DNA from: a virus
Virus record (IMG/VR): IMGVR_UViG_3300023281_001076
Coordinates: 1 to 27,056 of that record
Direction: 5' to 3' (one strand)
Length of the DNA stretch: 27,056 nt
Within the stretch, counting starts at the first letter, position 1. Each line of letters starts with the position of its first letter. This document shows positions 6,258-27,056 of the stretch, in pieces. The position numbers and the translations under genes are program-made. The notes beneath the pieces are model-generated. The model worked only from the letters and a program-made list of their open reading frames with translations. It did not search any database and had not been told where the DNA came from.

Positions 6258-6272
6258 TATAATCTCCGATAT

Positions 6273-6279
6273 TAAATAG
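6273..6279 (-). promoter_or_regulatory. CTATTTA word before the 133-residue protein gene
   Basis: The minus strand reads AAAACACTATTTAATATC, 15 bases before the start codon. It shares AACACTATTTA with the sites before the sheath and scaffold genes. Promoter role inferred. Confidence 0.35.
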
Positions 6280-6560: not shown

Positions 6561-7363
6561 TAACCTACCTCATGTAGTTCGATGCGATCGAACGAATATA
6601 TGTAGCTTGGACTTCCATTATACCAGTAAGCTCCTATATAAGCTTGTGCTGTGCTTCCTGTAAGATCTAGGGGAGGTGTTGTAGCGGCTGCCCTAAAATC
6701 TTCCTGGGGGTTTCCTGACCAAAAGGCGCCAGCATAAATAGGTATACCTCCAAAAGCTTTTCCTTCTTCTGAGGACGTACTAGCCATGGCGGAAAAGTTA
6801 GAGTGCCCATATCCTACAGCTTGTGACTTGATATTGCTCGTCACTCCCGAACTTCCAACTGAGAGATCTTCCACTAAGGTTCCGCCCTTAACAACTCGCC
6901 AAGTGCCGTTACTAACCATAGTAAAGTTAGTATCCTCATTATTTGTTGATCTATCTGTGCGGATGCCTCCCATTGGTCCACCGTTTTGTGATTGAGCTAA
7001 AACAGATGTATATGCCCATCTCCAAATATATCGCTTTTCAGCATCAAAAGCACCAGACGCTCCATAAGCCATCAAGTCTGCCCACTGTGCCGATAGTTGT
7101 GGTCCCGTATAGGTCCCGCCAAAATACCCGCTATTAGTCTTCGGCTCTATTTTTAATACCCCACTATCAACCTGAAACTGTGTCGCGCGGGTGGAGTTGG
7201 CGTTTTCGGCTGTAAATGTAACCCCTCCAAGAGAAAGAGTTGAAGTAGACATAAAATCGTGATCCGAGACAGTAGAAAAATCTACAGACCAAATAACTGT
7301 TGATGCTGAACCGCCGCCATCGGCTTGAAGTTTCCATATTCCGTTTTCTAATACTAAAGCCAT
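6560..7363 (-). CDS. Fibre/adhesin-like protein, tandem paralogue B
   Basis: A 267-residue protein that is a clear paralogue of the gene just upstream. Shared stretches in order: 'MALVLENGIWKLQADG' at the N-terminus, 'IWSVDFSTVSDH', 'STSTLSLGGVTFTAEN', 'FQVDSGVLKIEPK', 'PQLSAQWADLMAYGASGA', 'EKRYIWRW', and a C-terminal 'AQAYIGAYW' ending in 'ELHEVG'. The alternating aromatic and small residues suggest a jelly-roll or lectin-like beta sandwich; this is an inference and no named family was recognised. It has no signal peptide. It lies in the fibre block, so binding to the host surface or decorating a virion is the likeliest role. The two copies differ most in the middle loops, as expected for binding surfaces. 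Confidence 0.75.
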   Translation of the reverse strand: MALVLENGIWKLQADGGGSASTVIWSVDFSTVSDHDFMSTSTLSLGGVTFTAENANSTRATQFQVDSGVLKIEPKTNSGYFGGTYTGPQLSAQWADLMAYGASGAFDAEKRYIWRWAYTSVLAQSQNGGPMGGIRTDRSTNNEDTNFTMVSNGTWRVVKGGTLVEDLSVGSSGVTSNIKSQAVGYGHSNFSAMASTSSEEGKAFGGIPIYAGAFWSGNPQEDFRAAATTPPLDLTGSTAQAYIGAYWYNGSPSYIYSFDRIELHEVG

Positions 7364-7375
7364 TTTATACCCTTA

Positions 7376-8194
7376 CTATCCTACCTCGTGTAATTCAAGA
7401 CGTTCAATAGAGGTTATGGTCGTAGAACCTCCGGAGGACCAATAAGCACCGATATATGCTTGAGCACCAGAATCCGATAAATCAAGAGTATCAGGAGGCG
7501 CGGTGAGTTTTCTAAAGCCCTCATTAGTATCAGCTGCCGTCGTGTATCCAGTCCAAATAGGCAGACCCCCAAAGGCAACATCCTTTTCGGTGGACTGACT
7601 AGCTAAAGCTGCGAAACTACCATTCCCGTAACTGATTGCTTGCGACCTATATGATCCGGTAATACTTGTCGAAGTTGAGTTCACTGCCTTATCTTGCGAG
7701 GCGCCTTTTTGAAAACGCCAAAATCCGTACTGCGAAAGCTGAAATCCTAAATCTTCATTGATTGTTGTTCTGTCAGTACGAATACCTCCGAAACCGCCGC
7801 CGAAGTGATCCACCGCAGCCGATAAAGTAACGGCTGACGAGAATATCCATCTCCAAACATAACGCTTTTCAGTATTATAAGCGCCCGATGCACCATACGC
7901 CATTAAATCAGCCCACTGGGCAGAAAGCTGCGGTGCATTATAAGTTCCATTGAGGTAAATATTTCCGACCTTTGGTTCTATTTTAAGTACTCCACTATCA
8001 ACTTGAAATTGTGTTGCGTAAGTAGCAGATGCATTCTCAGCTGTAAATGTAACTCCTCCAAGAGAAAGAGTTGAAGTAGACATAAAGTTATGATCAGAGA
8101 CAGTAGAAAAATCAACAGACCATATAGTAGTGGAAGTCGGTCCTGTACCGTCAGCTTGTAATTTCCATACTCCGTTTTCTAATACTAAAGCCAT
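7376..8194 (-). CDS. Fibre/adhesin-like protein, tandem paralogue A
   Basis: A 272-residue protein, upstream member of a tandem duplicated pair. The frame stays open further upstream, but the start chosen is the ATG giving 'MALVLENGVWKLQADGTG', because it matches the N-terminus of the paralogue and avoids overlapping the preceding gene; the longer version would add 32 residues. Conserved blocks are the same as in the downstream copy, including 'TSTLSLGGVTFTAENA' and 'ADLMAYGASGA'. It differs by an insertion near 'AAVDHFGGGFGGIRTDR' and in the C-terminal loops. Probable beta-sandwich, possibly carbohydrate-binding; no family was recognised. Short spacing to both neighbours suggests one transcript. 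Confidence 0.75.
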   Translation of the reverse strand: MALVLENGVWKLQADGTGPTSTTIWSVDFSTVSDHNFMSTSTLSLGGVTFTAENASATYATQFQVDSGVLKIEPKVGNIYLNGTYNAPQLSAQWADLMAYGASGAYNTEKRYVWRWIFSSAVTLSAAVDHFGGGFGGIRTDRTTINEDLGFQLSQYGFWRFQKGASQDKAVNSTSTSITGSYRSQAISYGNGSFAALASQSTEKDVAFGGLPIWTGYTTAADTNEGFRKLTAPPDTLDLSDSGAQAYIGAYWSSGGSTTITSIERLELHEVG

Positions 8195-8204
8195 TTTATA
8201 CTTT

Positions 8205-9503
8205 CTAAGGTGATGTAGACATAATGGACCAGAAGTAACCTGATGCACCTGAAATCGCAGAAACTGTTGCTGATCCATAGTTAACTTCAATCTTTAGTTG
8301 AGAAGCACTATCTATCTTCTGGGAACCACTTGCTGCGATTACTACATTATTTGTTGAGCCCGAACCTTCTGAGTCTTTAACAGTAAATGTTATTCCAACA
8401 TCATCGTCACTTGTAAGGCCCGGTAGTGTGCCTGTAACAACACTGCCGCTGGTATTCACTGGGAATGCTTGGAAGTTTCTTACATCAAAGTTTGATGTTT
8501 TTACAGGAGACATTGCTTGGTAGAACTGTGTAGTATTTAGTTTAAACTCATTCTCAAAAATGTCTACTCGCGATGTTCCTTCGTAGTTATAACTTAATCC
8601 CTCACCTATACTGATTCTTCCGTTATCGGAAGAAGATACTTCAAATGCTTCTGTTTGTATTCCAACAGATGCCGTGATAGTTGGAACAGCCAACACATCA
8701 GAAGTGAATGTGAATGGAGAGTGACTTGTAACCTTACCGTCAGTTGTTGATACTAAAACTCTGTTTGCCGGGACACTAGACACATATGCGTCTGTTACAT
8801 ATACTTCTGATCCTGATATATTAGCTGAGGCAGAAATATCTGGAACTGCCAGAACATCTGATATAAATGTGAATGGAGAGTGACTTGTGAGCTTCCCGCC
8901 TGTTGTCGATACTAGAACTCTATTTACTGGAACACTTGATACATATGCATCCGTTATGTATACTTCTGAACCCGAGATGTTAGCCGAGGCAGAAATGTCC
9001 GGCGCTGCTAATACGTCAGATGAGAATGTAAAGGGAGAATGACTCGTAACCTTTCCACCTGTTGTTGATACTAAAACTCTATCTGCTGGGACGCTGGAAA
9101 CATAAGCATCTATAGCATATAAACCGGAGCCTGATATGTTGATAGAAGCTGATACATTGCCGGTAACAAGAAGATTCTTTGTTCCAGTATCCCAGGTTAG
9201 ATCACTTGAGCCACTTAAATCTCCACTTACTGGTGTATCAAATCTAAACTGTAAAGAATATTCAGGTCCGTCAGCAACTTGAACTGCCGATGCTGTGACA
9301 CCTGTTAAGTTAGAAGCATCACCATAGAATGCTGACGCCGAGATATTAACTGAGGCAGATAAAGAACCTGAACCGTCTGTTGTTAATAAAGCAGATCCAC
9401 TAAAGGATCCGTTATTGTTAAATTGTATATTTGTATCGCTTCCTCCTGGCGTGGTTGTTCCACCACTGCTACCAGTCCCTACGAATGCCCATCCACCAGC
9501 CAT
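8205..9503 (-). CDS. Modular tail-fibre-like protein with 53-residue repeats
   Basis: A 432-residue protein. The ATG at 9503 (MAGGWAFVGTGSSGG) is preferred over one 24 codons upstream because it has an AGGAG site and because the longer form would begin inside a terminator. Layout: Gly/Thr-rich N-terminus; a 'FYGDASNLTGVTASAV' module typical of phage fibres; three in-frame 53-residue repeats (units like 'DAYVSSVPVNRVLVSTTGGK'); and a C-terminal module with 'GSQKIDSASQLKIEVNYGS' ending 'GYFWSIMSTSP'. Both the YGD..LT module and the C-terminal 'GSQ.ID' module recur in other fibre-like proteins of this window. The likely role is a trimeric fibre contacting the host; which part of the virion carries it cannot be told. 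Confidence 0.8.
   Translation of the reverse strand: MAGGWAFVGTGSSGGTTTPGGSDTNIQFNNNGSFSGSALLTTDGSGSLSASVNISASAFYGDASNLTGVTASAVQVADGPEYSLQFRFDTPVSGDLSGSSDLTWDTGTKNLLVTGNVSASINISGSGLYAIDAYVSSVPADRVLVSTTGGKVTSHSPFTFSSDVLAAPDISASANISGSEVYITDAYVSSVPVNRVLVSTTGGKLTSHSPFTFISDVLAVPDISASANISGSEVYVTDAYVSSVPANRVLVSTTDGKVTSHSPFTFTSDVLAVPTITASVGIQTEAFEVSSSDNGRISIGEGLSYNYEGTSRVDIFENEFKLNTTQFYQAMSPVKTSNFDVRNFQAFPVNTSGSVVTGTLPGLTSDDDVGITFTVKDSEGSGSTNNVVIAASGSQKIDSASQLKIEVNYGSATVSAISGASGYFWSIMSTSP
8680..9120 (-). repeat. Three in-frame 159-bp tandem repeats inside the fibre gene
   Basis: The motif TGACT at 8722, 8881 and 9040 repeats at exactly 159 bp, which is 53 codons. The repeated protein unit contains DAYVSSVP, RVLVST and SHSPFTF. 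Repeat edges are approximate. The units differ by scattered synonymous and conservative changes, so the duplication is not very recent. Confidence 0.85.
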
Positions 9504-11646: not shown

Positions 11647-13377
11647 TTAGTAGATGAACCAGTCGGACCCATCGGTGTATAAAATTACCGATCCATAGGG
11701 TGACTCAACATAGACAGCTGGGGCTCCGTCAATCGTTTGCGATCCCGAAGGGTTAAGAGTGATCGAGTCGTTGGATGACGCCAATCCAGACTCATCTTTT
11801 ACAACTAAAACTTGTCCTGAAGAAAAATCTGCGGCATTAAATAAAATGCTCGATGGGACCGCCGATATACCAAGAATATAGTTTCCTGCTGACGCAGTGT
11901 AACTTGATGAAACCGAGACTCTATTATGTGATAAACCGGAATCAACTTTAAAACTATTACTTGTTAGATCGTATAAAACATTTGCTGTTCCACTGATTTC
12001 ATTTGTAATCGGATTGTCAACTCTAAACTGTAATGCCCCCACTGGCCCATCACCAGTTGTTATCGCAGATGCTGTAACATTTGTAAGATAACGCCCATCG
12101 CCATAAAAGTAAGATGACGATATATTAGAAGAGGCACTAACATTACCAACTACAGAAAGTGTGTTGCTTGATGTAAGGTATTGAAGGTTTGAGCTTCCTG
12201 ATATTTTGCCGTCATTAGAGGAATAATATTGGAGATATCCCATACCACCTCGTGCGCGAGCAACGTTCGTGAGATACCTGCCGTCTCCGTAATATAAACT
12301 AGCAGATATATAAGAAGATGCCGTTACATCATTAAATAAACCACAACTAGCAGAAACCTTAACTGATCCATCTGACGATACATCACCGAAACTAGCAACA
12401 ACTCCACCGCCATTAGTGGTATCGTGAATTTGAATTGAACCGGCGATCTTCAATGGCGAACCACCATACAACGTTCCGGCAATATATACATCATTACCAA
12501 AATAAGCATCCGAAGAAGCAGAGAAATCTCCAATAATAGTTAGAGAGTTTGTTGGTGAATCAGTGTTGATACCCAAACGACCAGAAGAACTTAAGAATGT
12601 AAGGTTTGCGCTACCTGTAAATGACCCAGCGCCCTGTTGAAACTGAAGAGATCCAGTTGGGCCAGTTGCTCCAAACGTTGAATCAATAGTTATAGCACCA
12701 CCAGCGCCCGAATCTGCTATAGAGATTCCTGTTCCAGCAGTAAGAACGCGCTCGTTGGGCAATTTTGTTTCAGCGTTAACCGTAATATAAGTTGCGGTTA
12801 ATGGAGGATAAGGTACTGGTTTTGGTGCTGGGGAAGAGATATCTGTCTCTTCTTCTTGTTTAAGTGTTGGGCGATCAACCTCTGGGAGCACTCTAAATGC
12901 TCCAGCGCGAGCACGAACACATTCAGCACTGATCTGGAACTTATGTTCTACTTGACCAAAGTAGTAGCGAGTATCATTGAATGTTTTTACAATCTCGTAG
13001 AATACATCACCGTATTGAACAAAGTCTCCAACGCGAACATAAAGGTTTTGATCCTCTACAAGTCTGCGTCTGTGGAAGTTAACTGTTAGTTTTGTTTGAT
13101 ATTCATAACCATACTTTGTGTTGGTCTGATCATTTGTAACTTCTACATACGCAAAGACGCGAACTGGTGGAAGAGTTACTTTTTCTTTTGCCTCGCCGTA
13201 TATATCGTTGAAGTTTGAATCTTCAAGACTTATAGGATAGTAAGCGACTGTTTGACCAAGAACTCTCTCGGCCAACTCGTCATTGACTTGCTTTACAAGG
13301 TTACGTTCTTTCTCGCCAAAGAACATAGGAGCGGGAGGGGATCCCGGTCTTGTCCACTTATTTTTTGGATCGGACAT
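11647..13377 (-). CDS. gp14-like neck domain fused to a fibre: candidate neck fibre
   Basis: A 576-residue two-part protein. Residues 1 to about 165 match the separate gp14-like protein encoded just upstream at about 131 of 170 positions (hand alignment). After a Pro-rich linker (SSPAPKPVPYPPL) comes a fibre region: 'VLTAGTGISIADSGAGG', several 'YYGDGRYLTNV' modules as in phage fibres, and a C-terminal domain with 'GSQTIDGAPAVYVESPYG' ending 'SDWFIY'. T4 gp14 forms part of the neck, and in T4 the neck carries fibritin whiskers; I infer that this protein replaces a neck subunit and projects a fibre from the collar. The ATG follows AAAGGAG, 15 bases after the gp14-like stop. It could instead be a fibre that borrowed the domain for another docking site. 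Confidence 0.8.
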   Translation of the reverse strand: MSDPKNKWTRPGSPPAPMFFGEKERNLVKQVNDELAERVLGQTVAYYPISLEDSNFNDIYGEAKEKVTLPPVRVFAYVEVTNDQTNTKYGYEYQTKLTVNFHRRRLVEDQNLYVRVGDFVQYGDVFYEIVKTFNDTRYYFGQVEHKFQISAECVRARAGAFRVLPEVDRPTLKQEEETDISSPAPKPVPYPPLTATYITVNAETKLPNERVLTAGTGISIADSGAGGAITIDSTFGATGPTGSLQFQQGAGSFTGSANLTFLSSSGRLGINTDSPTNSLTIIGDFSASSDAYFGNDVYIAGTLYGGSPLKIAGSIQIHDTTNGGGVVASFGDVSSDGSVKVSASCGLFNDVTASSYISASLYYGDGRYLTNVARARGGMGYLQYYSSNDGKISGSSNLQYLTSSNTLSVVGNVSASSNISSSYFYGDGRYLTNVTASAITTGDGPVGALQFRVDNPITNEISGTANVLYDLTSNSFKVDSGLSHNRVSVSSSYTASAGNYILGISAVPSSILFNAADFSSGQVLVVKDESGLASSNDSITLNPSGSQTIDGAPAVYVESPYGSVILYTDGSDWFIY

Positions 13378-13392: not shown

Positions 13393-13905
13393 TTAAGGTC
13401 TTGTAGTTGCTTCCTTAACTCTAAATAGACCTCTACGAGCGCGAACACACTCTGCACTTACTTGAAACTTATGTTCTACTTGTCCAAAGTAATATCTTGT
13501 ATCATTATAGGTTTTTACGATCTCGTAATATAAGTCGCCATACTGAATAAAGTCGCCTGCTCTAATATAAAGATTTTGATCTTCTACTAGACGACGACGA
13601 TGAAAGTTGACTGTAAGTTTGGATTGGTATTCATATCCATACTTATCGTTTGATTGCTCGTTATCAACAATGATGTAAGCGTAAACACGAACAGGCGGGA
13701 GAGTAACTTTATCTATTGCCTCACCATACGTTGAGTTAAAGTTTGTATCTGTCATACTAACAGAATAATAAGCGACCGTTTGACCGACAACTCTCTCTGC
13801 TAACTCATCGTTGACTTGCTTTACAAGATCGCGCTCGTTCTTTCCAAAGAACATTGGTGGTGGTGGCGCATCAGGCTGCGTCCATTTATTCTTTGGATCC
13901 GACAT
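13393..13905 (-). CDS. gp14: Neck protein, T4 gp14-like
   Basis: A 170-residue protein thought to close the head after packaging and join it to the tail. By memory of T4 gp14, two regions agree: 'LVKQVNDELAERVVGQTVAYY' with the later 'YGEA' corresponds to gp14 '[20 protein letters not shown]' with 'FGED'; and 'RAGDFIQYGDLYYEIVKT' followed by 'GQVEHKF' corresponds to gp14 '[20 protein letters not shown]' followed by 'GQNAIRK'. It is shorter than T4 gp14 (about 256 residues), lacking the C-terminal part. Its ribosome site TAGGAG overlaps the stop codon of the bS21 gene. It is followed by a paralogue fused to a fibre. The family call is by eye; the duplication is certain. Confidence 0.7.
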   Translation of the reverse strand: MSDPKNKWTQPDAPPPPMFFGKNERDLVKQVNDELAERVVGQTVAYYSVSMTDTNFNSTYGEAIDKVTLPPVRVYAYIIVDNEQSNDKYGYEYQSKLTVNFHRRRLVEDQNLYIRAGDFIQYGDLYYEIVKTYNDTRYYFGQVEHKFQVSAECVRARRGLFRVKEATTRP

Positions 13906-14575: not shown

Positions 14576-15175
14576 TTACTTTCCCACAATCTCATTCATA
14601 AGATTAATAATCTTGTTGTTTTTGGTAACTTGCTCATTTACAAGTTTGCTTTCTTGGAGTCCCATAAAAGCGTTAGGTGTTGATGGCTCTGAAACAATAT
14701 CAAAACAAATCAACTGGAAATCATCTTCCACAATCGTCTTGCCCATTCTCTCTGTAACGGAACCCATACCTCTGGATGATATTCCAATCTTTACCCCAGA
14801 GTCCACCAAGGCACGGAGGATTTGTCCGGACGGTGTATTAAGGACTTTACATTTACCCATTACAGAAGAACCATCCATCCAAACTTCTGTAATCATATGA
14901 GAGACATTTACTAGGTTGATAATAGAAGAATCTGGGTGATCGAGTTCTCCCAAGGCACGGTTGTCTTCTACAAGGGCTTTATATTTTTGAACCTCTCGCT
15001 CCATAATCTTGCGAGGATATACGCGTCCGTTTCCGTTTTGAACGTCTGCTTCTTGAAGTTTCCCAGTAAGCATCATACCGCCATCGCGGACAAAGCGCTT
15101 CTCGGATTCCGTCAGTAGATCCTGACAGACACCGCCTTCGCATAGTTCATAAAATTCTCGTAGTAGTTTAGCCAT
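14576..15175 (-). CDS. gp21: Prohead maturation protease, T4 gp21-like
   Basis: A serine protease of the herpesvirus-assemblin type that cleaves scaffold and capsid proteins after (I/L)-x-E during head maturation. The protein has 199 residues, close to T4 gp21. Catalytic signatures: 'ALGELDHPD' with His80; 'IGISSRGMGSV' with Ser133/Ser134; and 'CFDIVSEPSTPNAFM' with Asp159, the usual third block. 'NGNGRVYPRKIM' (47-58) is also typical. The ATG at 15175 (MAKLLREFYEL) is preferred to a GTG 16 codons upstream, which lies in a hairpin and has no ribosome site; the ATG has GAGAG 10 bases before it. Substrates in the window are probably the scaffold and the capsid protein. Confidence 0.94.
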   Translation of the reverse strand: MAKLLREFYELCEGGVCQDLLTESEKRFVRDGGMMLTGKLQEADVQNGNGRVYPRKIMEREVQKYKALVEDNRALGELDHPDSSIINLVNVSHMITEVWMDGSSVMGKCKVLNTPSGQILRALVDSGVKIGISSRGMGSVTERMGKTIVEDDFQLICFDIVSEPSTPNAFMGLQESKLVNEQVTKNNKIINLMNEIVGK

Positions 15176-15187
15176 TATTGTTCTCTC

Positions 15188-15223
15188 AAAAAAAAGATTT
15201 AACGTGGGGGCTTTCACCCCCAC
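15188..15223 (-). terminator. Hairpin with distal U-tract, possible terminator
   Basis: The minus strand carries GTGGGGG-TGAAAG-CCCCCAC, a 7-bp GC-rich stem, then GUUAAAUC and eight U. The U-tract starts eight bases after the stem, farther than ideal, so termination may be partial. It lies between the small membrane/mini-ORF genes and the protease gene. Confidence 0.5.
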
Positions 15224-16653: not shown

Positions 16654-17457
16654 TTAAGTTAGTTCCTGTACAAGTTCTTGTGTTTTAAGAATCTTGTTTA
16701 AATCACCGTCTGTAAAATCGCGTTTTCTAAACTCTTCAAGATACTCGGATACTTCGTTTAGTTTCTGCGAGATAAGAGGCTCGGATGTGTTTTCGCTTGT
16801 GGCTTTAACTAAACTTTTAAGTCTTCCCAGCTCTTCGTTTAAATAAACACGAAGTTCAAAGCCATCGTCCGCAAAACTTGTGATGTATTGGTTAAGAAGA
16901 TCTTTTTGTTCTTTAATAAGATTTGTGTATTTGCTATTGAACTTCTTAATAAATGAGTTGTAAGTTAGGTTGTCTATAGATTCTAACTTGTTTGATTCTG
17001 AGAGAGTTGTCTCTGCGCTCATAGCATCAACTATTGACTGCTCAAAAAGAACCTTGCTTTTCACTGGGGTCTTTGTGTTAAAGATAGCATTAACAGAAGC
17101 AAGAGACTTAAAGTTTGGAACAAAGTTAGACCACACATCCTTACCTAGTTCTTTATTGATAGCAGAAATCATTCGTGACTGCGCATCGAATACTTCTGAG
17201 GAGTCAATCTTGGAATAAGCAAACTTTGTTTCTTGGAGCATTCTCTCGGCAATGTTCGCTTTGATGTTTCTCGTCTCAAGCAAAGTTTTGTATAGTTCAA
17301 GTTCGCTAATCAATACAGACTTACCAGAGAACCCTTCTTTAATGATAGAAAGAACAGTTGACTTTCGTTCAGCATTCTTATCTACGATAGCTTTCGTTAA
17401 CTCTCTTGTAAGAGTCTCATAAATAAAAGCGGTATTTCTTTTCTTATTATGCTTCAT
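16654..17457 (-). CDS. Probable prohead core-type helical protein after the portal
   Basis: A 267-residue, mostly helical protein. The ATG at 17457 (MKHNKKRNTAFIYETLTREL) is preferred because AAGGAG lies about 10 bases before it; a start 11 codons further upstream lacks a site. It overlaps the end of the portal gene by 11 bases, suggesting coupling. The protein is Lys/Glu/Ser-rich with heptad-like stretches such as 'SKYTNLIKEQKDLLNQYI' and 'LNEVSEYLEEFRKRDF'. T4 places its prohead core proteins gp67 and gp68 directly after the portal gene, so a core or scaffold-associated role is plausible. No catalytic motif was seen and the family is not recognised. Confidence 0.65.
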   Translation of the reverse strand: MKHNKKRNTAFIYETLTRELTKAIVDKNAERKSTVLSIIKEGFSGKSVLISELELYKTLLETRNIKANIAERMLQETKFAYSKIDSSEVFDAQSRMISAINKELGKDVWSNFVPNFKSLASVNAIFNTKTPVKSKVLFEQSIVDAMSAETTLSESNKLESIDNLTYNSFIKKFNSKYTNLIKEQKDLLNQYITSFADDGFELRVYLNEELGRLKSLVKATSENTSEPLISQKLNEVSEYLEEFRKRDFTDGDLNKILKTQELVQELT

Positions 17458-19387
17458 CTTCCCGGTCTCCTTTTTTCTCCATTTGATCAACTAATAAACG
17501 AACCTTTGTTGTGTTCTCAAAAAGAATCCGTTCATCTCTAGTATAAATAGGTTTAATTTTTTCTTCCAGACCGATGTTTGCTCTCAAGTCAGCTGATGTG
17601 ACTCTGCCCGGGAACTTTGTTCGAGATGTTGAGCCGGCTTCTGGGCCTCGCACCATCCTTTTAAGTTCGCGCTTCATTGGTCCTTGCGAATGTCTGTTAG
17701 CTGAACCTCGACGCTTATCGACATCAACTTTTTTATATGCTGCGCCTTCGTGTCGTGTTGGATTATCTTCTCTTCGGCCCGGGGTTGATAATAGAACGTC
17801 TTCCTCTTCGGCTTCGGCTCCTCCGGCGTCGTCAGCTCCCAAATCTAGGGCATCGTCGTCTAGACCCAAGCCATCGCCTAGGTCGCCACCGCCGCCGAGA
17901 TCTCCTCCAAGTGCTTCTGCTTCAGCATCTTCATCAACGATCGACTCAAGAGACTGCTGATACTTACGATCATAGAATGTCTCACGCTGGTTACGAAGGA
18001 ACTCGGAATCAGACATTCCAAGAATGTTTGATGCGACCCAACGCTTTGAGAATGTTCCTTCTGGAACTGATGTAGCAGTTTCGAACTTTGTCTTCATATA
18101 TTCGAGTTGCTGTAACTCGGCTAAACGTGACGGGTTGTTTAGAGTAATCTTGAATCCCAAAAGATCTTGGCCTCTAAAGCCTAATGTATAAAGGTGAACA
18201 ATAGCCATCTTCTCTAGCTCTGAAACAAGAGATCTTTGAAGTCTATGAATAGTTCTTGCGAAACGGATATCCTTCTGTGCTAGGGTTGTCTTATCTTCTG
18301 CGCCACCTTCAAGGTTGGTAAGGTAAGATTGCGGAATCTTAATTGCTGCGAACAACTTATCACGAAGATACTTAACATCCTCAATATCGTTCAAGCTGGC
18401 AGCGCCGGCGAGAGATGTGATATCAGAGCCGACACCACCACGCATTGGAATAAAGTAATCTTCTTCAAGTGATAGTGGGTTGTAACGTAGATCTACTCTT
18501 CCTGTGTTAGCATTAACAAGAGAGTTTCTCTTCATTTCGGTTTTAACCTTTTCCATATACTGTGGAATATCTTGTGGCGGAATGTTACCAACATCAATCT
18601 TGAAGATTCGGCGCTCAGGGGCACGAACAACACGATAAGCAATCATCGCATCTTCTAGAAGTGTTAGTTGGCGCCAAATGCGCCGTGCCGGATCCAAAAC
18701 AGATGTGCCGTATGGGTTGTATCTATCGTTTCCAAGAATGCGGAAGTGAGCAACCTGCCAGTTTTCAAAGGTCATCCCGGCACCATTCCACTGATACTGG
18801 ACATAGTTGGGGTTTGACTCGTCCATACCCTCAAGGCGTTCTACTTCGTTGTTAGGCATACCAATAACAGAGGTGATGCCTGTCTTCTCATCAATATCCA
18901 TATAAAGAAAGAAGTCACCATACTTACACATTGATCGTGCCCAACCAAAACAGTTGAACTCAATGTTAAGCACATCGTAAAAAAGAGATTCAAGAATAGT
19001 CTTGATTTCGTGATTGAGACAATCAATGTTTAATAGACGATCATACTCATTTGATGTAGTCATCTCATCAGCATATATATCCAAAGCAGTAGCAATCTCT
19101 GGCATGTATTCCATTTGCTCAAAGTCTGTGTATCGTTCTGCTCTGTTTTGGTTTCTAAATGCCGCTGATGTGAAAAGGTTATAGTTCTGGGACATATTGG
19201 AGTCGTGTCTTTTAAACTCCTGTCCGGACATTGAACGGAAACGATAACGATACTTATCTAGATCTGCTCTCTTTTCTTGGCGCGCAACTTGTGTGCGGTA
19301 GTTAACGATCGGACCAGATAGCATTCTAGTCAATCGTTTGAATAGCGGTGACGCTGGATTCCTTGTATTGTTCTTGTTCTTAGCCAT
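17447..19387 (-). CDS. gp20: Portal vertex protein, T4 gp20-like
   Basis: Forms the dodecameric ring at one head vertex through which DNA enters and leaves, and where assembly starts. It has 646 residues (T4 gp20 about 524). Signatures: 'YMPEIATALDIYADEMTT' near residues 90-110; 'LTLLEDAMIAYRVVRAPERR' and 'IFKIDVGNIPP', the hallmark of T4-type portals; 'YFIPMRGG'; and 'YLRDKLFAAIKIPQSYL'. After about residue 480 there is an extra acidic Gly/Asp/Glu-rich, low-complexity linker (about 490-540) and a basic tail with 'KRELKRMVRGPEAG', which accounts for the greater length. The start follows AAAGG. It lies directly downstream of terminase, its packaging partner, and overlaps the next gene. Confidence 0.95.
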   Translation of the reverse strand: MAKNKNNTRNPASPLFKRLTRMLSGPIVNYRTQVARQEKRADLDKYRYRFRSMSGQEFKRHDSNMSQNYNLFTSAAFRNQNRAERYTDFEQMEYMPEIATALDIYADEMTTSNEYDRLLNIDCLNHEIKTILESLFYDVLNIEFNCFGWARSMCKYGDFFLYMDIDEKTGITSVIGMPNNEVERLEGMDESNPNYVQYQWNGAGMTFENWQVAHFRILGNDRYNPYGTSVLDPARRIWRQLTLLEDAMIAYRVVRAPERRIFKIDVGNIPPQDIPQYMEKVKTEMKRNSLVNANTGRVDLRYNPLSLEEDYFIPMRGGVGSDITSLAGAASLNDIEDVKYLRDKLFAAIKIPQSYLTNLEGGAEDKTTLAQKDIRFARTIHRLQRSLVSELEKMAIVHLYTLGFRGQDLLGFKITLNNPSRLAELQQLEYMKTKFETATSVPEGTFSKRWVASNILGMSDSEFLRNQRETFYDRKYQQSLESIVDEDAEAEALGGDLGGGGDLGDGLGLDDDALDLGADDAGGAEAEEEDVLLSTPGRREDNPTRHEGAAYKKVDVDKRRGSANRHSQGPMKRELKRMVRGPEAGSTSRTKFPGRVTSADLRANIGLEEKIKPIYTRDERILFENTTKVRLLVDQMEKKGDREDEA

Positions 19388-19395: not shown

Positions 19396-20979
19396 CTAAC
19401 CTTTTAATAACCCAATATATTGGTAGTTTTGCTCCATAGCCTGTTTAGCGCGTTCTGTTTCTTTCGTCACCTTGTGGCCCTGCATCCCTGGAATCGTTGT
19501 AGAAATAGTTGTTTTTGCTGTGCTAATCGCGGCTACGAAAGACTTACTGTACTCTACGTTCTTTTGGCTTTCTACAATCACAGTATCTCTTACCCAGCAC
19601 CCAATAGCAAACGACATTACTAAATCATCATTGTAACTTCTCATTGCTTGGGGTCTTCCGTGATGCCAAATAAATGTCTTCATTTCAGTAAGCAAGCGAT
19701 TTGAGTTGATCGTAATTAGTTTATTTCTCATAAACTCTTCCATTTTCGCAACTATTAGAGGTCTTGTCTTCGAAGAAGTTGTAAACCCTGGTATCACATT
19801 TGATTGCCATTGTGCTGTTAGCGGGTCCACATATCGATGGTCACTCTTTGTTGCGTAATAGAGATTAGGATACTCCTTATCAATCAACTTTTTAAGGACA
19901 GCAAAGCCAATATTATTATTTTCAATCACTAACATAGGGTTGCCGTATTCGGCTGCTACATTATAAAGAATATCAGCAAAATCATCTGGTGTTGATTTGC
20001 CGACATATTCTGCGACTTGTTCAAGTGTTGCGAGTTCTATTATATGGAAAGCACTATTATCTTTACCATCTCCCCGTGCAACATCGGCAACAATCAAATA
20101 ATGGTTCTCTGGATTGTATTTCTCCCAGATCCAATAGTTTCTATCAAATCCAGTGCGATACTCCGGTGCTGTGACTTTATCCAAATACCATTGTAAGTCA
20201 TCCGGGTGAATAACAGTCTCACCAGAAACGTTGAAGTTACACTGTAACTCCTGCGCGATCTGACGCTTGGACATATTTCTGGTTTCTTTATCAAACCATT
20301 TCTGATCCCGATCGGGGTGAGCATCCCACATAAGCGTCGTCATATGGAAATCATTAACGCCGGCCTCTGCCTCAGCGCAGTTTTGGTGGAACCAGTTGCC
20401 TACACCGTTTGGAGTAGAAAGAGCAATGCAACGACCACCAGTAGATAGTGTGGGGTATAACGCTGTCCACAACTCTTCTAGTTTCTCAACGTGAGCAGCC
20501 TCATCAATGATTAGAAGCGACAGCGCCTCTGAACGACCAGCATCACCAGATGTGGAAGAACCTTTAATCTGTGAGCCGTTAGAGAGTTCGAACGATGTTC
20601 TGTTGTCTACGATAATGTCGGAGATCTGCATCCACTTCGGCAGATTCTTAATAATCGCTTTTACTTTTTTAACTAAGTTTGTTGCTGTTTGTAGTTTTGT
20701 CGCGACAACAAGAATGTTCTTGTCTTTGTGAAACAACATTAGCCACGCTACATACGCAGCACTAATAGTAGAAATGCCCAACTGACGGGCTTTTAGAATA
20801 ATATTAAAACGATAATCGCGGAAGTCTTTTAATAACTCTTGCTGATAATCAAATGCTTTGAAAGGAATTAAGCCTTTCTGCGGGTGAGAAATCCTACAAT
20901 AGTTTGTCGTAAAGTAAACCGGGTCTTTACCGGCTTTAACAACTTCTTTTAAGATTTCCTGCTTTGTAAGCGCAGCCAT
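19396..20979 (-). CDS. gp17: Terminase large subunit, T4 gp17-like packaging ATPase-nuclease
   Basis: The motor that pumps DNA through the portal and cuts the concatemer. It has 527 residues. ATPase part: deviant Walker A 'ARQLGIST' (64-71), Walker B 'LLIIDE' (155-160) and coupling motif 'STPNG' (188-192). Nuclease part (RNase H-like): 'VADVARGDGKDNSA' with Asp299, 'LVIENNN' with Glu353 and 'YNDDLVMSF' with Asp451/452, matching the three acidic residues of T4 gp17. It is shorter than T4 gp17 (610), mainly at the N-terminus. The start is one base after the upstream stop. No obvious small terminase gene is recognisable; the two unknown genes just upstream are candidates only by position. Confidence 0.97.
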   Translation of the reverse strand: MAALTKQEILKEVVKAGKDPVYFTTNYCRISHPQKGLIPFKAFDYQQELLKDFRDYRFNIILKARQLGISTISAAYVAWLMLFHKDKNILVVATKLQTATNLVKKVKAIIKNLPKWMQISDIIVDNRTSFELSNGSQIKGSSTSGDAGRSEALSLLIIDEAAHVEKLEELWTALYPTLSTGGRCIALSTPNGVGNWFHQNCAEAEAGVNDFHMTTLMWDAHPDRDQKWFDKETRNMSKRQIAQELQCNFNVSGETVIHPDDLQWYLDKVTAPEYRTGFDRNYWIWEKYNPENHYLIVADVARGDGKDNSAFHIIELATLEQVAEYVGKSTPDDFADILYNVAAEYGNPMLVIENNNIGFAVLKKLIDKEYPNLYYATKSDHRYVDPLTAQWQSNVIPGFTTSSKTRPLIVAKMEEFMRNKLITINSNRLLTEMKTFIWHHGRPQAMRSYNDDLVMSFAIGCWVRDTVIVESQKNVEYSKSFVAAISTAKTTISTTIPGMQGHKVTKETERAKQAMEQNYQYIGLLKG

Positions 20980-21911: not shown

Positions 21912-22357
21912 TATTTTACAATCTCCGTAGATAAAGCAAAGATGCCCAACGATGTAAGAGTTCCAATACCAAATCCTAACGCAACGAAAAGCGGACCTTG
22001 GCTTGGCTTCTGCTTCATAATCAAATCTGTTAGACGATCGTTCTCTGCTGTCTTAAGAATCATCATTGATTCATACTTGTCTTTCCAAGATGTAATCTCT
22101 ATCTCTTTAAAGTCAAGTTGAAGTTCGTAGTTTTCTTTCTGGAGATTTAGTTCGTATTCCAAACGTAAATCATATTCAGTGTCCGAGAATCTCTTGTCGT
22201 TCAATACTTTTGCTGCCGCATCCAAAGATAATAGAATACCATCAAAAGGTATCGTATCACCTTTCTTAACAGATGTGACTATATTTTCTTCGGCAATCGC
22301 TGTGCTCGGGAATATTAACGAAAAGAACAAACAAAGGAACAGTATTTTTTTAGCCAT
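21911..22357 (-). CDS. Exported protein with C-terminal membrane segment, spanin-like topology
   Basis: A 148-residue protein with an N-terminal signal sequence (MAKKILFLCLFFSLIFPSTA; likely cleaved after AIA), a periplasmic region with 'VKKGDTIPFDGILLSLDAAA' and a coiled-coil-like stretch (about residues 60-115), and a C-terminal hydrophobic segment 'FVALGFGIGTLTSLGIFAL'. There is no lipobox cysteine. A periplasmic coiled coil anchored at one end resembles spanins, which disrupt the outer membrane at lysis, but it does not match classic o-spanins (lipoproteins) or Rz. It overlaps the previous membrane gene by 8 bases. The lysis role is inferred from topology and context. Confidence 0.65.
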   Translation of the reverse strand: MAKKILFLCLFFSLIFPSTAIAEENIVTSVKKGDTIPFDGILLSLDAAAKVLNDKRFSDTEYDLRLEYELNLQKENYELQLDFKEIEITSWKDKYESMMILKTAENDRLTDLIMKQKPSQGPLFVALGFGIGTLTSLGIFALSTEIVK

Positions 22358-22766
22358 CTTCTAATCCAAAAGTGTTGGCTATTTGTTTAGCCAACTTCTC
22401 TGGATCATTATAGCTTTCATCTACTAGTTTTTTAAGTTTGGCTTCTTTTACTTTGTCTAAGCGGTCAGAGTCTTCCTCAAAAGCTTTTTTCAAGTTCTCT
22501 TTTTCTTTTAAGTGACCCTCTAAACGAAGGTTCTTCTCAACAACTTCTGTGTTGTGAATGTGAGAAAGTGTTTCCATTTCTTGATCGTGCTGGTCTCTTT
22601 TAGCATCAAACAAATCCATTGCTCTTTTAAAGAGTGCTCCGTTTCTCATAGCAATGCTTATAAGCCCAGCACAGAGAACAAGAACTAAAAGTACGATTGC
22701 CCACCAAAACCTTTTGGCTAGCACCCACGCTTTCTTAGAAAGAAGTGTTATTTTATTTATTGTCAT
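22350..22766 (-). CDS. Membrane protein with coiled-coil tail, possible i-spanin
   Basis: A 138-residue protein with one N-terminal membrane segment (about residues 19-40, 'WWAIVLLVLVLCAGLISIA') preceded by basic residues, followed by a long charged helix with heptad character ('KNLRLEGHLKEKENLKKAFE', 'DSDRLDKVKEAKLKKLVDE') and a short end 'QIANTFGLEDG'. One inner-membrane anchor plus a periplasmic coiled coil is the layout of Rz-type i-spanins. It overlaps the holin-like gene by 14 bases and the next membrane gene by 8. It could instead serve an unrelated envelope function; no conserved motif was recognised. Confidence 0.65.
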   Translation of the reverse strand: MTINKITLLSKKAWVLAKRFWWAIVLLVLVLCAGLISIAMRNGALFKRAMDLFDAKRDQHDQEMETLSHIHNTEVVEKNLRLEGHLKEKENLKKAFEEDSDRLDKVKEAKLKKLVDESYNDPEKLAKQIANTFGLEDG

Positions 22767-22956
22767 AGCCTTTAAGTTTCGTCACGGCATCAATAACAGT
22801 TTGACCACCAATATATACAGTTGTGATAATAACCCAATCTGCTGATTGTAGATCTGAGAACATTAGTAGTCCTGTTGCAGTGGCCCAGGCTAATAACTTT
22901 CTGGACACTAGCTTGTCTAGTCCCCTATCTAATATGTGTCTTGCTTTTTCAGTCAT
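22753..22956 (-). CDS. Putative holin
   Basis: A 67-residue protein with two hydrophobic stretches, about residues 19-34 ('RKLLAWATATGLLMFS') and 41-58 ('WVIITTVYIGGQTVIDAV'), joined by a short acidic turn, with charged ends ('MTEKARHILDRGLDKLVS' and 'TKLKGYDNK'). Size and topology fit small phage holins, which form holes in the inner membrane to start lysis, and 'VYIGGQ..ID' is reminiscent of known holin-like sequences. It overlaps a coiled-coil membrane gene, as in holin-spanin cassettes. No endolysin lies in the window. The ribosome site is GGAGATGAG. A CTATTTA word 16 bases upstream may be the promoter. Confidence 0.6.
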   Translation of the reverse strand: MTEKARHILDRGLDKLVSRKLLAWATATGLLMFSDLQSADWVIITTVYIGGQTVIDAVTKLKGYDNK

Positions 22957-22970
22957 GTCTCATCTCCATA

Positions 22971-22979
22971 TATAAATAG
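22971..22979. promoter_or_regulatory. TATAAATAG between divergent genes: late-type promoter candidate
   Basis: The only divergent gap holds TATATAAATAGG. On the plus strand it contains TATAAATA, the T4 late promoter word, 15 bases before the J-domain gene. On the minus strand it reads CCTATTTATATA, the CTATTTA word found before other minus-strand genes, 16 bases before the holin-like gene. Which strand, or both, is used cannot be decided from sequence. Confidence 0.5.
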
Positions 22980-22993
22980 GTCCTAACATCATT

Positions 22994-23737
22994 ATGTCTA
23001 AACGTATCCAACTTAAATTTAAGAAAATGTTAAAGAAAGCAGAGTTTGTACATGCTGATTTAGAGTATCACGAAGAGTTAGTATTTGAAGCCAAAGCAGA
23101 TTTTAATGAAGCATTCCAAGACAGAATAGATAATATGTCTAGGCGCGAAAGAAAGTATTGGACGCGGAATCTTCACACTTTAAATGATGAAAGAGCAAAG
23201 CAACTTCTACAACAAGCAGAAGAAGAAAAGCAGAAAAGAATAGATGCTGAGACCGACGAGGATCAGACCGGTATTGTTAAGAATAAAGAAGTTCTTATGG
23301 ACGCTGGGACAGGCGAAGAGTTTTATCTTAATCCAGACGAGGTAGATACACCTGACGATGATAAGTCAGGTGTGATCAAAAAGCTTTATCGCAAGATTGC
23401 TAGTGAAACACATCCGGATAAGTTAGTTGCTTCCGGGTTCTCTCAAAGAGAAGTAGAGAGAAAAGAACAAATATTTATGAAAGCAAAGGAAGCATACGAA
23501 CGAGAGAACTGGTATATGATTTATTCAATCGCGATCGACCTTGGAATATCCCCTGGTGATATTGATGAGAAGCATATAGATTGGATTGAGGAAGATGTTA
23601 AACTTACAATGGGTCGTATCTCTCGGATCGGTCAATTATTTGTTTGGGTATGGTATACCTCTACTGACGAACAAAAAGAAAAGGTTATGGACCAATACTT
23701 TAAACAAGTGTATAAGTGGGAAGGAAAAGATTTTTAG
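22994..23737 (+). CDS. J-domain (DnaJ-like) protein
   Basis: A 247-residue protein, the only plus-strand gene. Near residue 125 begins a J-domain: helix II 'SGVIKKLYRKIASET', then the invariant 'HPD' (140-142), then helix III with 'QIFMKAKEAYERENWYMIY'. The HPD loop stimulates the ATPase of Hsp70 (DnaK) and recruits it to substrates (family knowledge). The N-terminal 120 residues are highly charged and probably coiled coil, with an acidic linker. It lacks the Gly/Phe, zinc and C-terminal domains of full DnaJ, so it is a type III protein with its own target, possibly virion assembly or replication proteins (inference). The ribosome site is weak. It faces away from the membrane genes and converges with the nuclease-ATPase gene. 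Confidence 0.87.
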   Translation: MSKRIQLKFKKMLKKAEFVHADLEYHEELVFEAKADFNEAFQDRIDNMSRRERKYWTRNLHTLNDERAKQLLQQAEEEKQKRIDAETDEDQTGIVKNKEVLMDAGTGEEFYLNPDEVDTPDDDKSGVIKKLYRKIASETHPDKLVASGFSQREVERKEQIFMKAKEAYERENWYMIYSIAIDLGISPGDIDEKHIDWIEEDVKLTMGRISRIGQLFVWVWYTSTDEQKEKVMDQYFKQVYKWEGKDF

Positions 23738-23750
23738 TTCCTTTCCTTCC
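23719..23750. terminator. Possible bidirectional terminator between converging genes
   Basis: GGAAGGAAA (23719-23727) and TTTCCTTCC (23742-23750) form a 9-bp stem with a 14-base loop, spanning the stop of the J-domain gene and followed on the plus strand by TTCTTTACT. It lies in a 17-base gap between converging genes. The stem is AT-rich and the U-tract poor, so function is uncertain. Confidence 0.35.
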
Positions 23751-23754
23751 TTCT

Positions 23755-26700
23755 TTACTGACTTATCTGCGCGTATCCATCTTTCTTATCTATTGTAATC
23801 TCCATATCAACGATATCTTTTAGAGAATCCAAGTGAGAAATAAGAATAACTGTCTTAAAGTAAGTCTTAACTAAGTCAAGCATTCGTATAAAGCCTTCCA
23901 TATTTTCAGCATCCAAAGATGTTCCTGGCTCATCTAGAATAAATATATTACCTTTTGGTAGCGAAGACACTGATAGTAGAGCCAAACGAATGCCCATTGA
24001 AGCAAGCGTTTTCTCAGCCCCTGATCCCATCTCAATGGGTCGGGCTTCGTAGTTAGGGTGTTTAATAAGAACATCTAGTTTGTTTCCATCCTCTTGAAAA
24101 AATACTTCAAAGTCAACAATGTTAGAAATAGTCTTTGCTATCTCTTCGTTAATCACAGGAAGGCGCCTTTTAATAATATCATATGCGATACCATTAGAAT
24201 GTACACATCGCATATACAAATCATAGGCAGCATACTCGGCACGAATGTTAAGAAGATCTTGCTTCTTTTCCAAAAGAGTCTCTACCTTTTGTTCCAAAGA
24301 ACCAATCGTTCTATTATGAGTATTTAATGTTTCTTCAAAGTCTGAAACCTCTGTTATTACTTTATCGATCTTCTTCTGAACATCATCTCTGGAAGATATA
24401 AGATTTTCAATGTTTTGGATTGCTTCCTTATTATCCTCATACAAAGAGATCTTGTTATTCGTCTCTTCAAGATCGTTGGTTGTTGTTTTGATTTTGGCGA
24501 ACAACTTTTCAATAGATACTTTATTGTCTCGCTTTTCAATCTCAATGTCGTTCTTGGCTATAATCGTTTCGTTATAACTATCAATCAAAGCAACCATAGC
24601 GGCTGAATCAACTGTTACAATCTTCTCTTTATAATCTTTTGCCTCTTCGATCTTCTCGATGATAGTCTTTTCTAGGGTTGGAAGTTCCAATGAGGCGCCG
24701 TGGGCGTCTGCGATAAACTTACAAGATGATACATACGAACTACCACAAGGAACCTCATCAAGCAAAACAAGCTTTTTCGACATTGTTTTATAGTCGTTGT
24801 CCATTAAACGAGCGCGGTTGATTGTATCGTCGTAGCGGCGCTTGAAAATATCATACTGCTTCTTTTCTTCAAGCAACTCTTCGATATTGATTGTTGTCAA
24901 GAAGTCATCATAAGATTGTAGTTTATCGTTGTAATCAACAATCTCTTGTTTGAGTTCGCTGATATTTTCTTTTGTATTCTTTACGTTGTTTGTTAGTTGC
25001 GTTTTTCTTTCTAAAAGCTTTTTTATGTTAAGACGCTCTGCTGGGATAGAATCAATCTGTTCCGAAAGATCTTTGTGCTCTTCCTCATAGGAAGCAACAC
25101 GAGAGCGAAGCATAGAGCACGTAGCCTTATCTACTTCAAGCTTCTTTTGGGCTTCGTCTCTACGAACCTCCGCGTGAGCAATATCATTATCATAATCAAC
25201 ATCACCAACTCGGCGCATAACTGCTTTAAGATCAGAAGAGTCTTCTTTTGCTAACTTAAATTTCTTCTCAAAGATTTCCAAGTCTAAGAACTTCGCAAGA
25301 ATCTCTTTACGCTTTGTTGAACCTTCTTTAATAAAAGATAGTGAATCCAACTGACTCGCCATAGAGGTAAGTAAAAAGTCTTCTATTGTTCCAAACTGTT
25401 TGCGAATGTTCGCATCAGTCTCATTACGAGTAGTTCCATTTAAACTTAAATCTTCGTCCTGTGTAAAGTCCAAGAATGTTCTTGCTTCGTTTGTCTCAAC
25501 ACCTTTAAGGCGCTTTACATACTTTTCAGACTTTCTCTCAATGTTATATACCTTCTCGCCAATCTGCAACTCAATCGTTCCTTTACAGTTCTTTCTGTTT
25601 TGGTTGATAATATTGTAGTTTTTGCGTTCGTTCTTGGAGGTAGTGTTGAACATAGTGTAAAGCATTCCATCAATAACAGATGATTTGCCTGAATAGTTCT
25701 TTCCAAAGATCCCAACAATACCGTTAAGATTTGTAAAGTCAAGTGTGTTGCTCTCGCCATAGTTGAATAAGTTTTCCCATTCAAAGCGATTAATGTTCCA
25801 GTTTACGTTTCTCGCAATGTCTTCGTTCTCTTCAATGTGAGAGTTATACTTGCGATTTAACTCATATACTTTCTGGATTACTTCTTCTGTCGGTTCATAA
25901 TCTTCTAAATACTCTCGTATTAGTCTTTCCTGAACAGCGATGTCTCGTAAGTTCTCAACTTTAAAGTTCTTTCCAAGACTAATCTCGCCTCTTTCGCCGG
26001 CTGCTCTATTCAAAAATGAGATTGATTCAGGCTTATAGCGAGACTTTGCGACCTCTACTGCCTTGCGCATTATATCAAGAGGCAAGTTATTATTACTTAC
26101 AAGACGTAAGCGAGCACCGGTAGGGATATTGGTGCCTTTGGGCATACGACCCTTTGGTGTAAGTTCAATAGTAACAAAAGGCTTCGGGTTCAGTAGAATA
26201 TGATGCTTAACAGTAAAGGTGTTCTTATCTTCAATATCCCAAATCAAGAATCCCTTATCGTTTGTTTCGCCGTGGTTCTGTTGGACGGTGCTTCCTGCGT
26301 AACGAACGCGTCCTTCTGTATCTAGGATTTGATTTGTCTTGTGAATATCTCCAAGCAACGCGTAATCGTGACCAGCAAAGACACCGATGTCGTGATCACC
26401 GTGATCCATTACCCAACCAACGTCTGTTGAAACACCACCAATAGCACCGTGATATAAAGCAATATTGATGCGTGTTGGATCGCTTGGAGCAACCCAGTTG
26501 TCTTCATCAAATACAGATAGGACATTGAGCGCGAGGTCGGGCTCTACAACTGTTTCACCAGCATCTTTGAGTAGGTGGAGGTTTGGGAGATTTAAAGCGC
26601 TTACAATGGGCGACAGAGCGTCCTGTCGGCTACTGTTCTTTAAGTTCCCGTCGTGGTTTCCAAGCAGAATATAAGTCGGCGCAATATTAGCAAGGTTCCT

Positions 26701-26898
26701 AAAAAAATCTGAACACAACTCAACGAACTCCGGGGAGATCTGTGTCTTTGTATGAGCAATGTCGCCACAGTGAACAATGTAATCTACGTTCTCTTTACGA
26801 AGAGTGTCGTAAAGTTGCTCAAATACCTTTTTATATTCGTAGTGATATTTTAGATTCTTGATGTGTGTGTCCGCAATATGTGCGATCTTGTATCCCAT
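23755..26898 (-). CDS. gp47-gp46: Fused gp47-gp46 (SbcD-SbcC / Mre11-Rad50) nuclease-ATPase
   Basis: A 1047-residue single chain joining the two subunits of the DNA-end-processing complex used in recombination-dependent replication and host DNA breakdown. Residues 1 to about 340 are an Mre11/SbcD phosphoesterase: 'ADTH' (Asp10, His12), 'CGDIAH' (Asp46), 'GNHD' (81-83), 'YHG' (His150), 'GHDYALLGDIH' (His177, His186). Residues from about 370 are a Rad50/SbcC ATPase: Walker A 'GIFGKNYSGKSS' (396-407), Q-loop near 516, a long coiled coil (about 560-900) with a cysteine pair at 718 and 726, signature 'GSGAEKTLAS' (about 958-967), Walker B 'IFILDEP' (985-991) and 'SHLD'. In T4 these are separate genes. 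The ATG at 26898 follows AAGGAA; a TTG six codons earlier is less likely. Confidence 0.94.
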   Translation of the reverse strand: MGYKIAHIADTHIKNLKYHYEYKKVFEQLYDTLRKENVDYIVHCGDIAHTKTQISPEFVELCSDFFRNLANIAPTYILLGNHDGNLKNSSRQDALSPIVSALNLPNLHLLKDAGETVVEPDLALNVLSVFDEDNWVAPSDPTRINIALYHGAIGGVSTDVGWVMDHGDHDIGVFAGHDYALLGDIHKTNQILDTEGRVRYAGSTVQQNHGETNDKGFLIWDIEDKNTFTVKHHILLNPKPFVTIELTPKGRMPKGTNIPTGARLRLVSNNNLPLDIMRKAVEVAKSRYKPESISFLNRAAGERGEISLGKNFKVENLRDIAVQERLIREYLEDYEPTEEVIQKVYELNRKYNSHIEENEDIARNVNWNINRFEWENLFNYGESNTLDFTNLNGIVGIFGKNYSGKSSVIDGMLYTMFNTTSKNERKNYNIINQNRKNCKGTIELQIGEKVYNIERKSEKYVKRLKGVETNEARTFLDFTQDEDLSLNGTTRNETDANIRKQFGTIEDFLLTSMASQLDSLSFIKEGSTKRKEILAKFLDLEIFEKKFKLAKEDSSDLKAVMRRVGDVDYDNDIAHAEVRRDEAQKKLEVDKATCSMLRSRVASYEEEHKDLSEQIDSIPAERLNIKKLLERKTQLTNNVKNTKENISELKQEIVDYNDKLQSYDDFLTTINIEELLEEKKQYDIFKRRYDDTINRARLMDNDYKTMSKKLVLLDEVPCGSSYVSSCKFIADAHGASLELPTLEKTIIEKIEEAKDYKEKIVTVDSAAMVALIDSYNETIIAKNDIEIEKRDNKVSIEKLFAKIKTTTNDLEETNNKISLYEDNKEAIQNIENLISSRDDVQKKIDKVITEVSDFEETLNTHNRTIGSLEQKVETLLEKKQDLLNIRAEYAAYDLYMRCVHSNGIAYDIIKRRLPVINEEIAKTISNIVDFEVFFQEDGNKLDVLIKHPNYEARPIEMGSGAEKTLASMGIRLALLSVSSLPKGNIFILDEPGTSLDAENMEGFIRMLDLVKTYFKTVILISHLDSLKDIVDMEITIDKKDGYAQISQ

Positions 26899-26917
26899 TA
26901 TTGATTCCTTTTCCAAT

Positions 26918-26955
26918 AAAAAACTCTACCACCAGTATACACCAGTGGTAGAGTT
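26918..26955 (-). terminator. Intrinsic terminator upstream of the nuclease-ATPase gene
   Basis: In minus-strand RNA, AACUCUACCAC and GUGGUAGAGUU form a perfect 11-bp stem with a 12-base loop, followed directly by UUUU, with the last stem bases also U. It would end transcription of a gene beyond the right edge, just before the nuclease-ATPase start, so that gene needs its own promoter or read-through. Confidence 0.8.
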
Positions 26956-27056
26956 AGTCAAGGATTATTTTATTTATCTTACTTGTAAAAACTTGTTTAT
27001 CGTATCACTTCAACCTTGATTCTTGATCCTGGCCCAGTTCTTCACTAAATGCCTCT
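26956..27056. other. Right-edge sequence, possible end of an upstream minus-strand gene
   Basis: Only 101 bases lie here. On the minus strand a frame open from the edge reads EAFSEELGQDQESRLK and then stops, which could be the C-terminus of the next gene and would fit the terminator just after it. It is too short to identify. Confidence 0.25.

Follow-up and report, generated by a model that had tools for sequence, protein, structure and literature searches.

A single gene facing the other way

What does a lone gene read against its neighbours in a T4-like phage encode, and when is it likely to be expressed? The question is raised by a 27,056-nt phage fragment (the window, meaning the whole stretch analysed), in which an ATG-initiated gene for a 247-aa protein (J) lies between the packaging and head genes and a fused gp47/gp46 gene. 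By inspection of the ORF list, every other plus-strand ORF either runs antisense to a minus-strand gene or overlaps one, and the left edge is occupied by an ORF of the minus strand. J is thus the sole plus-strand gene of the window, as an earlier reading made from the sequence alone had stated. The features that define the setting are:

1557-2819, minus strand, head-tail adaptor
2921-4627, minus strand, major head protein
14576-15223, minus strand, head maturation protease
17447-19387, minus strand, portal protein, T4-type
19396-20979, minus strand, terminase large subunit
22753-22956, minus strand, 67-aa ORF that opens the leftward packaging and head operon (by synteny with relatives)
22994-23737, plus strand, J, gene of the putative atypical J-domain protein
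23718-23751, no strand assigned, hairpin between J and gp46/47 where the two genes converge (RNA folding energy -19.3 kcal/mol, z -3.62)
23755-26916, minus strand, fused gp47/gp46 (SbcD-SbcC-like), converging on J

Pfam and PHROG searches with the 67-aa ORF gave no match. The gp47 and gp46 parts form a single polypeptide of 1053 aa (23755-26916), which is matched near full length in relatives that are sufficiently long. Elsewhere in the window, ORFs 11647-13377 and 13393-13905 are very similar over their first 170 residues and both match the same places in loci L013, L028, and L033; they probably represent a duplication. The adjacent ORFs 6560-7363 and 7376-8290 also resemble paralogues of each other by eye.

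An atypical J-domain

The J-domain family PF00226 matches residues 126-169 (E 1.3e-4) with 22.5 bits, below the curated cut-off of 27.8 bits, and alignment to the 63-position profile starts only at position 15 (10-17 in relatives). The family members listed in a genome scan also fall under the cut-off, the best at 25.9 bits. We built two alignments of the family, A1 (13 members) and A2 (39 members). Every A1 member matches PF00226 at E<=0.1, as do 29 of the 39 A2 members at E<=0.01. The HPD motif (residues 140-142, in HPDK, window 23411-23419) is invariant in all 39 A2 members at identities down to 24%; it played no part in finding the loci, as the search patterns were other peptides. The helix preceding it is basic: position K129 is K in 35 members and R in four, and K130 is K in 35, R in three, and S in one.

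In the AlphaFold2 model of the whole protein (mean pLDDT 84.2), HPD is flanked by predicted helices at 124-139 and 151-169. The helix II/III pair that we looked for by structure prediction is found both in this model and in a model of residues 116-190 alone (pLDDT 85.9), which bears out the HPD loop with flanking helices described in the sequence-only reading. The A1 profile matches the J-domain 2ej7 (E 6.7e-4). Superposition of the helix II-HPD-helix III hairpin of the 116-190 fragment gives an rmsd of 1.4 Å on the J-domain of JAC1 (3ag7; 44 columns with 32% identity) and of 1.9 Å on that of DnaJ bound to DnaK (5nro_B; 45 columns with 33% identity), with E > 1 and hence no significance in either case; the J-domain matches of the fragment have Z of about 4 and rank below designed three-helix and unrelated bundles. 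Searching the PDB with the whole model returned helical proteins only, none of them significant, and designed or unrelated helical chains take the top ranks of the aligner list.

Canonical J-domains possess a helix I. Here it is not recognizable: the region ahead of helix II is mostly predicted to be disordered and the PF00226 match lacks its start. The domain search gave nothing besides this partial match, in line with the earlier statement that other DnaJ domains are absent, and we found no G/F region, zinc fingers, C-terminal substrate domains, or N-terminal J-domain. Assignment to class A or B DnaJ does not agree with the central position of the J core (124-169) or with the partial PF00226 match as the only one. 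Sequence and model together indicate that the protein is probably an atypical J-domain protein that works like one. We call it atypical because two canonical features are missing, helix I and a score over the Pfam cut-off.

Architecture and conservation of the protein

The predicted parts of the protein are:

23000-23260, plus strand, N-terminal helical hairpin, residues 3-89 (helices 3-46 and 50-89; AlphaFold2)
23261-23362, plus strand, acidic linker, residues 90-123, mostly disordered (pLDDT < 50 at 91-105 and 107-120)
23363-23500, plus strand, J-domain core, residues 124-169, helix II, HPD, and helix III (AlphaFold2, PF00226, superposition)
23510-23713, plus strand, C-terminal helices, residues 173-240, with Y177, W218, and W220 invariant (AlphaFold2 and A2)

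What had been read as a long charged N-terminal region is in fact predicted to be a helical hairpin followed by a disordered acidic linker (about 91-120). Conservation in A2 peaks in residues 1-37, the J core, and the C-terminal segment around W218 and W220. Residues 1-37 are the most conserved stretch, with K11, K14, D22, Y25, A33, and F37 invariant in the 39 sequences; residues 47-118, which take in most of the linker, evolve fastest, with the largest dN in all but one of the 13 pairs compared. The dN/dS ratio is finite in 8 of 13 hand-picked pairs, where it ranges from 0.03 to 0.10, and dS is saturated in the other five. These values support purifying selection on the gene. As the J core is flanked on both sides by conserved parts, the architecture would suit client binding.

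Relatives in T4-like and huge phages

Relatives were collected by a scan of viral contigs (19 loci) and by a profile scan (48 loci, partly overlapping), giving a J-bearing set of 48 loci plus the window, 49 in total, from which L050 and L051 are excluded. Many loci are near-identical; removal of identical junctions left 38 sites with J and nine without. The T4-like loci have a common gene order as far as their contigs reach: terminase, four ORFs, and a homologue of ORF 22753-22956, then J on the opposite strand, then gp46/47 on the first strand again. Five further relatives are in the uncultured phages LR756502 (642 kb), LR745206 (635 kb), and LR756504 (636 kb) and on IMG/VR contigs of 476 kb (L050) and 90 kb (L051). 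In each of the three of these five for which the surrounding genes were listed (L050, L021, and L051), J opposes the ORFs on both sides, and a 576-aa ORF near J in L050 is a baseplate wedge subunit by PHROGs.

Profile searching of 16 records matched 13, one of them partially (Erwinia phage pEa_SNUABM_46, A2 profile, E 6.5e-10). No J relative was found by profile in Flavobacterium phage immuto, Microcystis phage Mel-JY01, or LR756508, whose terminases are among the nearest listed, and none was found in the prokaryote genome contigs scanned. In the literature searched, the family is not described and the one characterized phage J-protein found is Rki.

J is accessory and was deleted more than once

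Loci found through J carry it by construction. We therefore rely on a search with the neighbouring ORF, which is independent of J, and examined the best 80 of its 212 loci: 33 have J and 47 do not. J is an accessory gene; its universal presence in the lineage is ruled out by the 47 loci without it, which also indicate that J is not needed for assembly in general.

Among these 47 loci, gp46/47 lies within 200 nt of the neighbour ORF in 15, and the sequence stretch covered holds no gp46/47 match in 31. The remaining one, L113, has two ORFs of 120 and 490 aa between the neighbour ORF and gp46/47, suggesting that genes may be exchanged at this junction. The two ORFs of L113, at 2096-3954 in the place of J, run on the gp46/47 strand.

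Start codons of J are kept in 6 of the 13 empty junctions read. L108 and L110 retain MSKQLFKFID followed by a stop, L111 retains MT and a stop, and the remnants in L115, L116, and L121 begin MSKT; the other seven (L092, L093, L094, L096, L104, L124, and L125) have no start remnant, and J may have been either lost or never gained there. The remnants point to loss in the six loci that carry them, J having been deleted more than once. Parsimony gives 9 changes of state on the FastTree tree and 10 on a second, treekit tree.

A conserved element in the divergent junction

J and the leftward operon diverge from a junction of 37 bp. The elements considered in and around it, and before virion genes of the window, are:

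22971-22979, no strand assigned, promoter-like element, TATAAATAG towards J and CTATTTATA towards the leftward operon, 15 nt before ORF 22753-22956
2850-2857, minus strand, CTATTTA-type element, 30 nt ahead of 1557-2819, the gene of the head-tail adaptor
5767-5774, minus strand, CTATTTA-type element, 33 nt before ORF 4654-5733
6272-6279, minus strand, CTATTTA-type element, 14 nt before ORF 5856-6257
26934-26961, minus strand, sigma70-like promoter TTGACT-16-TATACT before gp46/47, with a similar site in relatives

The junction element is present in all 49 J loci, as TATAAATAG in 16, CTAATTAG in 27, and TAATTAG in six. From its end to the start of J the distance is 14-16 nt in 48 loci and 23 nt in one. 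Read leftward it is CTATTTATA or CTAATTA. The form of the larger clade, CTAATTAG, is palindromic and has the same reading in both directions; 27 of its 29 copies in 558 kb of J loci precede J.

Equivalent elements stand before virion genes in most relatives read, as CTATTTA or CTAATTA. The window has 10 copies of CTATTTA[AGT], all of them in the minus sense. Five of the 10 copies are at most 45 nt before minus-strand starts, where 4.6% of positions lie, and none of 5000 random placements reached five genes (27 complete minus-strand ORFs, chosen by the analyst). An extra CTATTTA copy (589-596) is 47 nt before the left-edge ORF. By eye, a terminator-like inverted repeat is directly followed by the CTATTTA element before the head-tail adaptor gene (about 2845-2895), as in the equivalent places of L072 and L074-L077, and the two look like a conserved terminator-promoter-like pair.

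In the available text of PMC2984593, late promoters are given as TATAAATA in T4 and NATAAATA in a cyanophage. The window element is similar to these late promoters, not identical. A reading of TATAAATA as a simple late promoter of T4 type for J was set aside, since the same element reads CTATTTATA leftward and the virion genes carry CTATTTA in that sense. TATAAATA also precedes J in the huge phages, but it is common at their G+C of about 0.3 and is not informative there. Sigma70-like sites number 12 in 22300-27056, and none has its end in the 100 nt upstream of J; TTGAC[AT]-TATACT stands before gp46/47 in 15 loci.

From sequence we infer that the junction element is a phage-specific late promoter, probably bidirectional where it is palindromic. 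Because it resembles the elements before virion genes, J more likely follows the timing of the leftward late operon, and late expression appears the likeliest. The orientation of J had been taken to suggest timing separate from its neighbours. This may hold at most towards gp46/47, with its sigma70-like promoter, and is less likely towards the packaging side, where the common junction holds a virion-type element.

The Hsp70 partner

HSP70 was detected in 5 of 15 records searched (the record of the window is too short to tell): one of 10 T4-like relatives and four of five huge-phage-type records. The T4-like case (G005) has a full-length DnaK-like gene of 608 aa near the right end of the record (L071, 15572-17398). 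The four huge-phage-type records, LR756502, LR745206, LR756504, and the 476-kb IMG/VR record, also encode a canonical DnaJ above the cut-off and GrpE. Chaperone matches in LR756502 lie at 483694-484359 and 494294-496075, and its GrpE and DnaJ matches are adjacent.

That the atypical J-protein is kept beside a canonical DnaJ in huge phages suggests a specialized task, hardly that of a generic DnaJ. The sequence-only reading had the protein recruit host DnaK. Recruitment of an Hsp70 is the preferred reading, given the invariant HPD, the predicted helix pair, and purifying selection; that this Hsp70 would be the host's is less certain, as five records have an HSP70 of their own.

A proposed role late in infection and its alternatives

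We propose that J is a dedicated, divergent J co-chaperone of the late phase that would bring Hsp70 to a late phage client, a proposal that we consider evenly balanced between right and wrong. Transcription of J would start at the shared divergent element, together with that of the leftward operon. The predicted helix II-HPD-helix III hairpin would dock on Hsp70, either host DnaK or the phage's own where present, and trigger its ATP hydrolysis, while the N-terminal hairpin and C-terminal helices would hold the client. Hsp70 could thereby act on virion assembly proteins, namely head, packaging, or tail proteins, or on lysis proteins. Hsp70 binding, late timing, and any client are what we infer here. 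The proposal is supported by the fixed place of J beside terminase, portal, and head genes in T4-like relatives, with a baseplate wedge gene near it in the 476-kb record. A wider version is tentative and, in our view, rather doubtful: a viral J family without helix I, in T4-like and >470-kb phages, would be expressed from a late bidirectional, often palindromic promoter and hand virion proteins to Hsp70, the largest phages adding their own DnaK-DnaJ-GrpE.

The protein could instead bind and divert DnaK early, altering the host stress response rather than virion folding. Rki of the T4-related phage RB43 acts in this way according to the available text of PMC3486835: it is toxic through DnaK and stabilizes sigma32, and its deletion impairs phage growth. 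In the same text the J-domain of Rki is N-terminal and its gene has an early promoter of sigma70-like type, whereas the J core here is central and the promoter-like element is common to J and the virion operon; tblastn relatives of the window protein were found in two uncultured huge phages only, RB43 not being among the matches. We regard this early takeover as unlikely. A role in counter-defence, with the protein competing with host DnaJ in chaperone-dependent phage sensing, is improbable on our estimate. It would fit the patchy presence and repeated loss of J, as expected of an accessory trait, and DnaJ mediates bNACHT25 sensing in the available text of PMC12619734, but the element is of late type and J is fixed in the virion gene block, not in an accessory island. 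The absence of helix I, the sub-threshold PF00226 scores, the weak structural matches, and the very strong conservation of the N-terminal hairpin would also suit a relic HPD hairpin, in a coiled-coil phage protein with a structural or nucleic-acid-binding role and no further use of Hsp70. A relic loop is expected to drift, however, as the linker does, and HPD is unchanged in all 39 members, at identities as low as 24%, which makes a relic improbable as well.

The remaining alternative concerns the element and is compatible with any function: it may serve the leftward operon only, with J read from elsewhere or weakly. All 13 empty junctions read keep CTA[AG]TTA before the leftward gene, and the window element fits the CTATTTA form in the leftward direction alone, TATAAATAG not being the form found before virion genes. 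Against this, the palindrome of 27 of the 49 loci reads alike both ways and nearly all of its copies precede J. Outside the TATAAATAG clade, the element is palindromic in 23 of 29 distinct sites with J and in one of nine without (nominal Fisher p 4.5e-4, kinship ignored); with that clade included, the counts are 23 of 38 and one of nine (p 0.010, kinship ignored). A tree-aware pairing of palindrome and J yields five pairs only, too few to reach significance. We consider a leftward-only element a serious possibility, somewhat short of even, and retain the shared late promoter as the preferred reading of the junction.

Comparison with known phage J-proteins

Phages such as lambda use host DnaK and DnaJ. 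Phage-encoded J-proteins have hardly been studied, and the one characterized case found, Rki, acts early and interferes with the host. If the J family is indeed late and linked to the virion, its repeated natural deletions would allow a clean comparison to learn which phage proteins depend on Hsp70. The family also tests the minimal size of a functional J-domain and provides a candidate divergent late promoter for uncultured T4-like phages.

Jumbo-phage J-domain proteins are among the best structural matches in BFVD. The alignment of A0A8D9CF77 (E 1.2e-10), from an uncultured marine phage, extends across almost the entire model, and this protein may belong to the family; the proteins of Dickeya phage vB_DsoM_JA11 (E 9.9e-6) and Erwinia phage pEa_SNUABM_5 (E 4.4e-5) align poorly (TM-score 0.33-0.34 by query). 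The group phrog_34319, for which no function is given, has matches to 15 of the 39 family members (E 1.7e-6 at best), the match of the window protein being weak and partial (E 0.012).

Phage-encoded J-proteins are already known from jumbo-phage surveys, as far as the available texts go (PMC7824862, PMC12619734). In that of PMC12619734, moraphages have DnaJ and DnaK homologues with signs of transfer from Flavobacteriales, for which assembly and counter-defence are proposed as roles. Moraphages are large aquatic phages with genes of the Hsp70 system, whereas the family described here is a separate, divergent J-protein. Rki (gene 057w of RB43; Perrody et al. 2012, PMC3486835) is alike in that the available text describes a phage protein of similar size (237 aa) whose single J-domain is joined to unrelated sequence. 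It differs in its N-terminal J-domain and early promoter, against a central J core without helix I and a late-type shared element in the window. What is new about the family is thus its architecture, its setting, and its probable timing, which differ from those of known phage J-proteins.
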